Part shown: in pieces, positions 36,694-40,811 of the stretch
Numbering within the stretch: the first letter of the stretch is position 1
Layout of the letters: each line of letters opens with the position of its first letter
DNA from: Elusimicrobiota bacterium
GTDB taxonomy: Bacteria > CG03 > SLGR01
Length of the DNA stretch: 64,000 bases
Assembly (NCBI GenBank): GCA_003553445.1
Contig: PWEK01000061.1
Coordinates: 1 to 64,000, forward strand
Direction of reading: 5' to 3'
The notes under the pieces: generated by a model
What the model was told of the DNA's origin: nothing
Databases searched by the model: none
The model's input: only the letters and a program-made list of their open reading frames with translations
Position numbers and translations under genes: made by a program

Positions 36694-36779
36694 GGTTTTT
36701 CCTTTTTTCATAAATTTAATGCTTTTTCTATCGTCAATATTTCGGATTTCTTTTTGGTAATTTTATGGAAATAAAGACC

Positions 36780-37892
36780 CTATGTCAAGCCCTTTCCGTA
36801 TATCCTGTATTTCTTATATATTTCTCCCCCCATCATCTTACCTATTTTAATAGTATTTAGATTATCTTCAAGTATCCATGAAAACTCACACTCTCTGAAT
36901 CCTCTCTTTACAGCAGATTCAAGAGAGTTATTATACATCAGTGCGCCCAAACCCCTGTTCTGAAATTTGTTTTTTATTCCCATTGCCATCAGTCTCAAGC
37001 CCTTTATCTTTCTTTTTAAAAGAATAAACTTCAACCATCCAAGCGGCAATAGCTTTCTGCCTATCTTTTTTATTACTTCATTGTAATCAGGAAGGGCCAG
37101 AAGAAACCCGGCAGGCTCTTCCTCAAAGAACCCTATCTGCACAAGATCAGCCATCACCAGGGGCTTCATCTGCCTTGCGATATCTGTCAACTCCGCCTCC
37201 GTCCACGGAACAAAACCCCAGTTTTCACTCCAAGCCTCATTATATATTTCCTTAACGTACCCTATCTCTTTTTCAAACTCTCCCATTTTAACGGGCCTTG
37301 AATACATCCCGGGCTCTTTTTTTTTCAACCTTTTTACTGCCCTTTGAAGTCTTTGAGCCGGACCTTTTGATACATCCATTATTAGCGCCACCAAATCATG
37401 CTGCTTTCTGTAGCCCGCTTCTTCCAGAATATCAAGATAGTAGCGGGGCGTATATGGCATCATAAACTTTGGAGGCGAATCAAAACCATCCAGAAGCACC
37501 CCGCATTCATCATTTGAAGAGGGATTCATCGGACCCACAACACGTTTCATGCCCTTTTTCTTCAACTCTCTTTCACATCTGTGAAGAAGTTTTTCCGGGA
37601 TTTTTTTATCTTCAAAAGATTCAAAGAAACCGAAAAACCCTGTTTTATCGTCCTGGTGTTTGAGATAGTTATAATCTATAATTGCAGCCGCTCTGCCTAT
37701 AGGTTTTTTTCCTTCATATGCCATATAAAGTTCCATCCAGGCATGTGAAAAAAACGGGTTTTTCTCGCTCAACAGGTGTTTTATATCAACGTCAAGCTTA
37801 GGAACCCAGTTTTTATTCCCCTGATATACTTTCTCCGGGAATTTCATAAACCTTTTAAGTTCCCTTCTGCTCTCCACCTTTTTAATTTTCAC
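36780..37892 (-). CDS. GNAT-fold acyltransferase-like protein (candidate N-acyltransferase of the lipid operon)
   Basis: Start overlaps the stop of the upstream SPT-like gene (ATGA-type). Motifs VYQGNKNWVPKLDVDIKHLLSEKNPFF, IGRAAAIIDYN, GFFGFFES, GPMNPSSNDECGVLLDGF, C-terminal FQNRGLGALMYNNSLES. Confidence 0.7.
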   Translation of the reverse strand: MKIKKVESRRELKRFMKFPEKVYQGNKNWVPKLDVDIKHLLSEKNPFFSHAWMELYMAYEGKKPIGRAAAIIDYNYLKHQDDKTGFFGFFESFEDKKIPEKLLHRCERELKKKGMKRVVGPMNPSSNDECGVLLDGFDSPPKFMMPYTPRYYLDILEEAGYRKQHDLVALIMDVSKGPAQRLQRAVKRLKKKEPGMYSRPVKMGEFEKEIGYVKEIYNEAWSENWGFVPWTEAELTDIARQMKPLVMADLVQIGFFEEEPAGFLLALPDYNEVIKKIGRKLLPLGWLKFILLKRKIKGLRLMAMGIKNKFQNRGLGALMYNNSLESAVKRGFRECEFSWILEDNLNTIKIGKMMGGEIYKKYRIYGKGLT

Positions 37893-39160
37893 TTAACTCT
37901 CCATAGTTTTTTCATCCAGTTACGCATTTTTTCCTTCATTGTTTTGGGCCCCTCCCCTGATTTTCCTTTACGGTCCGGTACAACCCCGATCATCTTTCCT
38001 GTCTCCTCAAAAACATCCAGGGCCTGGTCAATATGCCTCTGGCTGAAAGTTGCCATCACGGAAACCCTTATCAGGGCCCTGTTATCGGGCACTGCCGGAG
38101 AAACCACGGGAGTGGTAAAAACCCCCCTGTCAAACAAAATTTTCCACATCTGAAAAGCCTTCATGCTGTCGCCTATTATAAGCGGGATTATGGGGGTTGT
38201 GCTCTCCCCCGTATCATACCCGATTTCCTTAAAACCCCTGCGTAGCTTCTCGGCATTTTCCCATAAACTCCTGAGCCTGCTTTTATCTTTCTCAAGAATA
38301 TTTAAAACAGCCAGAACCGAAGCCACATTAGCCGGCGGCGGCGAAGCGGAAAAAATAAGAGAACGGGCATTGTGTTTTAAATAATGAATAGTTTCTTCAT
38401 CGCCCGCAACAAACCCCCCGATTGAAGCAAAAGATTTGGAAAATGTCCCTACTATCAAATCCACCTCATCTTCAAGGTCAAAATGTTCGGCGGTTCCGCG
38501 ACCGTTCTTTCCCATCACCCCGATACCGTGTGCATCATCAACAAGCAACCTGGCATCATATTTTTTCGCCAGCTTAACAATTGAAGGCAGATCTGCCACA
38601 TCGCCCTCCATGCTGAAAACACCATCCACTATTATAAGCTTCCCCTTATTTTTATCACACGACTTTAATACCTTCTCCAAATCCGACATGTCGTTATGCC
38701 TGAATCTTTTCATCTTTCCGAATGACAATCTGCACCCGTCGATTATTGAAGCATGGTCATACCTGTCGGTTATTATTGTTTCCCCTCTGCCAACCAGGGA
38801 ACTTATAACCCCCAGATTAGTCTGCATCCCGGTTGTAAAAAGCAGCGAGGCCGGTTTTTTCACAAATTCTGCCAGGCGATTTTCCAGCTCCTCATGCATT
38901 TCCAGGGTTCCGTTAAGAAAACGCGACCCCACACAACCGACCCCGTATTTTTCCGTGGCATTAATCGAGGCCTTCTTAACGGCGGGATGCGAGGTTAATC
39001 CAAGGTAATTGTTCGACCCCATCATAATCATTCGTTTTCCCTCAACATTCACCACCGGATCCTGACCGGTTTCAACTTTGTGAAAATACGGATAACATCC
39101 CAAAGCCATAACCTCTTTAGCCGCCCGGAAATCACGGCATTTATCAAACAAATCACTCAT
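37889..39160 (-). CDS. Serine palmitoyltransferase-like alpha-oxoamine synthase (PLP)
   Basis: GSNNYLGLTSHP, GVGCVGSRFLNGTLEMHEELE (SPT-like), DDAHGIGVMG, PLP Lys in DLIVGTFSKSFASIGGF. Start placed at MSDLF after GGAG. Confidence 0.82.
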   Translation of the reverse strand: MSDLFDKCRDFRAAKEVMALGCYPYFHKVETGQDPVVNVEGKRMIMMGSNNYLGLTSHPAVKKASINATEKYGVGCVGSRFLNGTLEMHEELENRLAEFVKKPASLLFTTGMQTNLGVISSLVGRGETIITDRYDHASIIDGCRLSFGKMKRFRHNDMSDLEKVLKSCDKNKGKLIIVDGVFSMEGDVADLPSIVKLAKKYDARLLVDDAHGIGVMGKNGRGTAEHFDLEDEVDLIVGTFSKSFASIGGFVAGDEETIHYLKHNARSLIFSASPPPANVASVLAVLNILEKDKSRLRSLWENAEKLRRGFKEIGYDTGESTTPIIPLIIGDSMKAFQMWKILFDRGVFTTPVVSPAVPDNRALIRVSVMATFSQRHIDQALDVFEETGKMIGVVPDRKGKSGEGPKTMKEKMRNWMKKLWRVK

Positions 39161-39189
39161 CGGTATCTCCTTTTTTCGTTTTTCAGCCT

Positions 39190-40101
39190 TTACAGCCTGC
39201 CTTTTTCTATATACCACTGATAGGTTTGCCTGAAACCATCATTCAGTTTGTATTTCACCTCTATACCGGAGGAAGGCATTACCCAGTCACCGGCAAATAT
39301 TTCTTTAACTTTGTCTTTATTTAGAACAGCCGGTTTTGAAGTCAACATCCCCCAGGCGCTTGCAGCAGTCCCTATCATTTTAACCAATCCACCGGGAATA
39401 TCTAAACACCTTACCTTTTTCCCCACGCTTCCCTGCAGGGCATATGCAACCTCTTCCCAGGTATAGTTCTCCCCGTCAGAAAGAAAAACTCTTTCACCGG
39501 GAGAAACATTAATTATTCCTTTCACACAATCCTCCACATGAATAAAACTCAACTGACCCGCCCCCGCAGGCCTGAGAAAAACCCCAAACCTGTCTGCCAT
39601 CCTAAAGACTGATAAAAAATCCTCATCTCTCGGGCCGTAAACCGCTGCGGGTATAACTATGGAGTTATTCGGAAGGCTCTTGACATAATCTTCTGCCTTT
39701 TTTTTACTTTTACCATAATCTGATACAGCTTCGCCGCCGGAAGGACCCCACGCCGCCTGACTGGAAACATATATAAAATTTTCTACCTGACTGCCGCAGT
39801 TCTTTACCGTCTCAACGAGATTTCTCGTGCCTTCACTGTTTATTCGATATAAATCACTCCCCATCACGGCCCTTACAGCTCCTCCCACGTGATAAATCTT
39901 CTCAACATTGCATACGGCATCTTTAAGAGATTCCGCAGAGCACAAATCGGCACAAACATAATCTGCTGAAATTCCTTTCAGCCATCTTGTATCCGAAGTC
40001 TCTCTAACCATACATACAACATCGTCACCCCGGCCGGTAAGCCGCTCCACAAGATGACTGCCTATAAAACCGTTTGAACCGGTTACCAGAACCCTGCTCA
40101 C
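39190..40101 (-). CDS. NAD-dependent epimerase/dehydratase (extended SDR; candidate 3-ketosphinganine/ceramide reductase-like)
   Basis: VTGSNGFIGSHLVERL, HVGGAVRAV, YVSSQAAWG, YGKSKKKAE (YxxxK). Confidence 0.82.
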   Translation of the reverse strand: MSRVLVTGSNGFIGSHLVERLTGRGDDVVCMVRETSDTRWLKGISADYVCADLCSAESLKDAVCNVEKIYHVGGAVRAVMGSDLYRINSEGTRNLVETVKNCGSQVENFIYVSSQAAWGPSGGEAVSDYGKSKKKAEDYVKSLPNNSIVIPAAVYGPRDEDFLSVFRMADRFGVFLRPAGAGQLSFIHVEDCVKGIINVSPGERVFLSDGENYTWEEVAYALQGSVGKKVRCLDIPGGLVKMIGTAASAWGMLTSKPAVLNKDKVKEIFAGDWVMPSSGIEVKYKLNDGFRQTYQWYIEKGRL

Positions 40102-40658
40102 CCCAAGAACCTCAATATCAGAGCTCCGGCGACCGGAAGATAAAAATTATCATTAATCTTAAGCGGTAGAAGCTCTAAAAATGCGCAGACCACCGAACCT
40201 ACCGCAATCCCGTATATGCTTAAACTCAAAATAGACGAAAAGGAAAAAACAGCAAGAACCGTAAAAGTAGCTGCCGCGAAAGCCAGAGCTCCCTCAACTG
40301 TTTTTCCAAAAAGAGTTATATTCCCAAGCCTCTCTCCGGCAATCGCCGCTGAAATGTCTCCCACACTCAGATATATTATTCCCCCCGCCGCCGCATCCGG
40401 CGGAAACAGAAGTATCGCCACAAAAACGCCTGCCAGAAAAGGAGGGCTGCCGGAAAAGTTTTTAACCTCCCGGCGCCTTAAAATAGGTATATTTTTATAA
40501 ACCACCCTATTAATCTTTCTATAACGCAGCCTTGCAATATCTATAAGAGTCAGTAACACTAAAAGAACCCCCGAAATCCATAGCGCGGATTTTTTTGTAA
40601 AAAGAATAAGCCATACAGCGAAAAAAACCCCTGAAAGATGATATAATTTTCTATACAT
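40098..40658 (-). CDS. Integral membrane CTP-dependent kinase-like / CDP-DAG-synthase-fold protein (dolichol/phytol/DAG kinase family)
   Basis: Five to six TMs, N-terminal RKLYHLSG, GDISAAIAGERLG...KTVEGALAF motif typical of SEC59/DGK1/VTE5-like proteins. Confidence 0.65.
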   Translation of the reverse strand: MYRKLYHLSGVFFAVWLILFTKKSALWISGVLLVLLTLIDIARLRYRKINRVVYKNIPILRRREVKNFSGSPPFLAGVFVAILLFPPDAAAGGIIYLSVGDISAAIAGERLGNITLFGKTVEGALAFAAATFTVLAVFSFSSILSLSIYGIAVGSVVCAFLELLPLKINDNFYLPVAGALILRFLG

Positions 40659-40665
40659 AGGTTTG

Positions 40666-40694
40666 ATTTTATCAAAATAAGCTCACCTTGACAA
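40666..40694 (-). promoter_or_regulatory. Promoter of the SPT-like lipid operon
   Basis: Minus TTGTCA (40694-40689), 17-nt spacer, TAAAAT (40671-40666), ATG at 40658. Confidence 0.75.

Positions 40695-40726: not shown

Positions 40727-40811
<85 letters not shown>

Follow-up and report, generated by a model that had tools for sequence, protein, structure and literature searches.

A candidate ceramide operon headed by a putative CTP-dependent lipid kinase gene in an Elusimicrobiota bacterium

Four minus-strand open reading frames (ORFs) form a tight unit at positions 36780–40658 of a 64,000-nt stretch (hereafter the window; contig PWEK01000061.1, assembly GCA_003553445.1) from an Elusimicrobiota bacterium, whose genome is a 2.22-Mb draft in 142 contigs with 97% completeness. 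They encode a kinase-like membrane protein (KIN), a short-chain dehydrogenase/reductase (SDR), a synthase resembling serine palmitoyltransferase (SPT) and a GNAT protein. Homology, active-site conservation, operon structure, phylogeny and conserved gene order together make it very probable that the three-enzyme core, SDR, SPT and GNAT, is a bacterial ceramide (dihydroceramide) operon. For the first gene we tentatively suggest a ceramide or sphingoid-base kinase that would use cytidine triphosphate (CTP). The four genes, in the direction of transcription, are as follows.

40098–40658, minus strand: gene 1, KIN, candidate CTP-dependent lipid kinase; 186 aa, start codon ATG; membrane protein with the motif RKLYH
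39190–40101, minus strand: gene 2, extended SDR, CerR type; 303 aa, start codon GTG; GxxGxxG near the N terminus, YGKSK corresponding to YxxxK
37889–39160, minus strand: gene 3, SPT-like alpha-oxoamine synthase; 423 aa, start codon ATG; GTFSKS pyridoxal phosphate (PLP) motif
36780–37892, minus strand: gene 4, tandem-GNAT protein of the YghO/bCerS family; 370 aa, start codon GTG

These ORFs and their junctions are exactly those of the original prediction, which had been made from the sequence alone. Genes 1 and 2 (40098/40101) and genes 3 and 4 (37889/37892) overlap by 4 bases each, and the 29 bases between genes 2 and 3 hold a strong Shine-Dalgarno sequence, aaaggag, in front of the ATG at 39160. 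The mechanical ORF of the synthase begins with a GTG at 39217, but the starts of its homologues agree with the ATG at 39160 instead. Because of this agreement and the preceding Shine-Dalgarno sequence, the start proposed at 39160 was retained.

The best NCBIfam model for the synthase was NF047600 (serine palmitoyltransferase) with 556 bits, followed by TIGR01825 (433 bits), BioF (404 bits) and KBL (317 bits). Its best sequence match in the PDB was the SPT of Sphingobacterium (424 bits, 49.5% identity), compared with 318 bits for KBL/BioF. The active-site residues listed for SPT (PMC10196870), N52, Y54, G80, S81, H138, S185, D210, H213, T241, S243 and K244, are all conserved, the PLP lysine and the histidine above the ring included; among the serine- and PLP-contact residues checked only two differ, Ala79 being replaced by Val and Met271 by Ile. 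The SPT-like segment GSRFLNGTLEMHEELE that had been reported for the synthase is present. The comparison with KBL and BioF set beforehand was a tree of 63 alpha-oxoamine synthases, computed by a quick method with SH-aLRT rather than bootstrap support. In this tree the synthase shares one clade (SH-aLRT 99%) with six known SPTs, those of E. coli, Roseomonas, S. wittichii, Sphingobacterium, Prevotella and Parabacteroides, while KBL and BioF fall outside.

The SDR carries Rossmann and YxxxK motifs and shares 27% identity with CerR of E. coli. A profile built from 33 operon SDRs of other phyla scored E. coli CerR with 202 bits and RfaD, an ordinary epimerase and the only non-CerR SDR serving as control, with 70 bits. 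As the profile members had been gathered with the window SDR as query, its own score of 282 bits is partly circular; that of CerR is not. The SDR thus appears related to CerR more closely than to RfaD and adjoins the spt gene, and we assign it to the CerR type.

The alignment of the GNAT protein with YghO of E. coli spans both proteins completely (33% identity), and its predicted structure (pLDDT 94) matches tandem-GNAT proteins, in line with the bCerS-like fold that had been anticipated. In the E. coli record with the matching YghO, the gene lies in the cluster aasR-cerR-acpR-spt-lptFG-yghO, annotated as acyl-AMP ligase, epimerase, acyl carrier protein, aminotransferase, lptF, lptG and yghO. 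This cluster has been described in E. coli BL21, where yghO was paired with CC_1154 (bCerS), a gene required for dihydroceramide synthesis (PMC9386255). The suggestion that the window protein represents a distinct bCerS subfamily did not hold, as it is an ordinary member of a broad YghO/bCerS family, for which a single pattern scan gave no fewer than 580 loci. Two further observations concern this family. In E. coli K-12 (L062:9044–11341), yghO abuts an IS5 element and there is no spt gene within the fetched region, whereas the complete spt cluster is present in another E. coli record (L064). Genomes with Geobacter and Desulfuromonadaceae labels (L131, L146) have a close pair of YghO/bCerS-type GNAT genes, the second of which might act on a different substrate.

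Within the same phylum, almost all contigs of sufficient length preserve the order SDR-SPT-GNAT; in G009 a single gene is inserted. Exceptions are G003, which has a more distant synthase and no such operon, and G013, where the SPT-GNAT pair is present and an SDR was not found on the short contig. For other phyla, the fetched flanks of the 80 top-scoring GNAT loci in named genomes were inspected: 46 contained an SPT gene and 37 both SPT and SDR genes, with Endomicrobium, Desulfuromonadaceae, Nitrospirae, Zixiibacteriota and WOR-3 among the genomes represented. Such retention within the phylum and beyond it shows that the order is not due to chance. Conservation of gene order, named beforehand as a check, is seen for these three genes; KIN is not part of the operon in all relatives.

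On this basis, the proposed route from SPT through reductase and acyltransferase is well supported by the tree, the active-site residues, the YghO and CerR homology and the synteny. We infer the substrates and products of the core enzymes as follows. From a fatty acyl thioester and an amino acid, probably L-serine, the SPT would form a 3-keto long-chain base by condensation. The tandem GNAT of YghO/bCerS type would N-acylate this base, and the CerR-type SDR would reduce its 3-keto group. The order of N-acylation and 3-keto reduction is not settled in the literature. KIN could then use CTP to phosphorylate the ceramide or the long-chain base, which would begin the assembly of an anionic headgroup.

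The three-gene core is already a known kind of operon, and KIN is its unusual part. An alignment of 18 KIN relatives revealed R3, H7, E64, G70, D101, G108, K119, E122, G123, D170 and N171 as invariant or nearly so. The N-terminal motif RKLYH (R3-K4-xx-H7) matches the charged clamp Arg29, Lys30 and His33 (RKxxH) of the CTP-dependent prenol kinase PfPolK (PMC10849223). KIN lies before the SDR gene in the window and in G001, G005 and G007, and in G001 this link persists despite a different upstream flank. In a second lineage, which has RTxxH in place of RKxxH, KIN lies just downstream of the SPT-GNAT pair (L157, L171, L199, G120, G255, G383); both operon-associated KIN clades are well supported in the tree. 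By a rough estimate, the two lineages with KIN adjacent to the SPT operon compare with 0.17 expected by chance (P ~0.013).

KIN relatives occurred in 131 of 384 genomes. In a distribution test across this set, in which KIN was counted from ~97 bits upwards, it was present in 48 of the 115 SPT-positive and 44 of the 269 SPT-negative genomes (p 2e-7). Within the SPT-positive genomes, KIN and the DAGK_cat domain (PF00781) were anticorrelated (odds ratio 0.24, p 7e-4), also at the family level (p 0.01 with one genome per family, p 0.004 with any genome per family); in the SPT-negative genomes the avoidance was not significant (odds ratio 0.64, p 0.19). The avoidance is suggestive and not a confirmed rule, because the thresholds were chosen by us, the idea arose from a look at 30 genomes within the same set, G001 with its truncated SPT was added by hand, and full phylogenetic correction was not applied. 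No DAGK_cat domain was found in KIN or in the search of the window genome. The genome does contain DgkA, which weakens the housekeeping explanation of KIN as the cell's only lipid kinase. It also contains LpxC, and loss of lipopolysaccharide as a reason for having sphingolipids was ruled out.

Several results speak against the kinase assignment. The window protein has no Pfam or NCBIfam match, and PF01148 (CTP_transf_1) is marginal in just 2 of the 18 relatives; searches of PDB sequences and plasmids gave nothing usable, and the fold model is of low confidence and returned no significant fold match. KIN was not found in G004 and G006, although both have the operon, nor in family f5, and most KIN homologues elsewhere lie outside SPT operons. 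With a chance approaching one half, KIN acts outside sphingolipid metabolism, as a kinase of polyprenol, phytol or diacylglycerol, and owes its place on the transcript to position alone. The wide occurrence of its relatives, mostly away from SPT genes, fits this view, as do the prenol substrates of the motif-matched enzymes and the two close relatives that have the same operon without KIN. It accounts less well for the link to SPT operons in two lineages at different positions, for the persistence of this link in G001, for the DgkA already encoded in the genome, and for an anticorrelation with DAGK_cat that is significant in SPT-positive genomes only.

Our own proposal, which we regard as possible but short of an even chance, is that KIN is a CTP-dependent kinase of ceramide or sphingoid bases. 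It would represent a second, non-homologous way of phosphorylating bacterial sphingolipids, used in SPT lineages without a DAGK_cat (LCB5/CpgB-type) enzyme. For the CTP-dependent kinase that had been read from the sequence, the RKxxH motif, the recurrence in SPT operons and the distribution complementary to DAGK_cat argue in favour, and the lack of a Pfam or fold match keeps it a candidate.

As to the core, some observations weigh against a classical ceramide pathway. The 556 bits of the synthase lie below the curated cut-off of 640 for NF047600, i.e. outside the calibrated range of this equivalog; the cut-off names one equivalog (CFB type) and not all SPTs. The link to Caulobacter bCerS and CerR runs via the E. 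coli orthologues, and acpR and aasR, which are part of the Caulobacter and E. coli clusters, are absent from the window operon. Moreover, where SPT has Ala79 as part of the pocket for the amino-acid side chain, the window SPT has Val (residue 77), and its substrate may therefore be an amino acid other than serine. The same Val is found in the relatives from the phylum where the position was readable (G005, G008–G014), and it may mark a changed amino-acid preference; most of the other lineages read have Ala or Thr. Ala79 corresponds to Cys133 of human SPTLC1, adjacent to the substrate side chain.

The core might accordingly yield a related amino-lipid instead of a classical ceramide, e.g. 1-deoxyceramide from alanine or a ceramide analogue derived from another amino acid. 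Diverse sphingolipid structures have been reported from anaerobes, with other amino acids suggested as SPT substrates (PMC11334938). We consider this unlikely, however, as Met271 (Ile) is the one other difference among the serine-pocket residues checked, and its role is a main-chain one. The residues kept include Asn52, whose contact with the serine hydroxyl is mediated by water, and a sulfonolipid-type cysteate acyltransferase is less close in the PDB (28eh, 273 bits).

It appears improbable that KIN is a cytidylyltransferase, i.e. a CDP-lipid synthase, and not a kinase. The marginal PF01148 hits in two relatives would agree with such an activity, and the non-significant fold matches include 5guf, an archaeal membrane-lipid enzyme which we take to be CDP-archaeol synthase. 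The N-terminal RKxxH, on the other hand, fits CTP-dependent prenol kinases, and a cytidylyltransferase would need a lipid that is already phosphorylated, whereas the operon would then encode no lipid kinase.

It is highly implausible that the synthase is instead a KBL or BioF whose neighbours are unrelated to it. It does share the alpha-oxoamine synthase fold, and the BioF and KBL models score it with 404 and 317 bits. The higher score of the SPT model and its place among the SPTs argue strongly against this identity, no tdh or bioA/D genes are nearby, as had been noted before, and its linkage to YghO/bCerS and CerR homologues is conserved. As the genome search found no further alpha-oxoamine synthase, it is not a spare KBL or BioF.

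Two promoter-like sites flank the operon.

40666–40694, minus strand: TTGTCA-17-TAAAAT, sigma-70-like with extended -10, consensus match upstream of the operon, suggestive only
36760–36788, minus strand: TTGACA-17-TAAAAT, consensus match between the GNAT gene and grpE, suggestive only

A single promoter upstream of the four genes had been predicted, and a matching site is indeed present, next to a divergent tRNA-Leu gene at 40727–40811. This consensus match is suggestive only, since the scan of the region yielded 13 promoter-like sites compared with 7.6 expected. If real, it would place the transcript start within a few bases of the ATG of gene 1 (40658–40666), giving a nearly leaderless mRNA. 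Downstream of the operon follow grpE-dnaK-dnaJ, of which grpE-dnaK are likely served by the site at 36760–36788; the presence of a separate site before grpE points to the GNAT gene as the last of the operon.

The present data extend the full order SDR-SPT-bCerS to an uncultured lineage related to Elusimicrobia and provide, with KIN, a specific and testable candidate for a type of lipid kinase not yet tied to bacterial sphingolipids. If the proposal is true, DAGK_cat genes by themselves would not suffice to predict the capacity for making phosphosphingolipids, and a first function could be given to a large family of bacterial membrane proteins that lack annotation.

Among the known systems, the cluster of Caulobacter crescentus and E. 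coli BL21 type (aasR, cerR, acpR, spt, cerS/yghO; CC_1162-1165, CC_1154) contains homologous clustered genes for SPT, a CerR-type SDR and a YghO/bCerS-type GNAT. The window SPT branches apart from the rhodobacterial SPTs, and its operon differs from that cluster by the CTP-kinase-like gene. An Spt-like clade with co-localised bCerS and CerR has been described across about 40 phyla (PMC11334938), in a main text that mentions neither Elusimicrobia nor any kinase. It shows the same co-localisation of three genes in uncultured anaerobic bacteria, and the window synthase would belong to it by position.

A lipid kinase genetically linked to SPT, as proposed for the window, is known from Caulobacter in the form of the ceramide kinase CpgB. 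This soluble, ATP-using enzyme is reported to have a diacylglycerol kinase (LCB5) domain, which we take to be of the DAGK_cat type, whereas KIN lacks that domain and is a small, multi-helix membrane protein. In Parabacteroides distasonis (L205:1831–4188), a gene of the diacylglycerol kinase family stands beside SPT on the opposite strand, paralleling the kinase-SPT link in the window. The CTP-dependent phytol, farnesol and dolichol kinases VTE5, FOLK, SEC59 and PfPolK and yeast Dgk1 are small multi-helix membrane proteins with an N-terminal RKxxH, as is KIN. KIN gave no profile or fold match to them, and it is linked to a putative ceramide operon, not to prenol metabolism.

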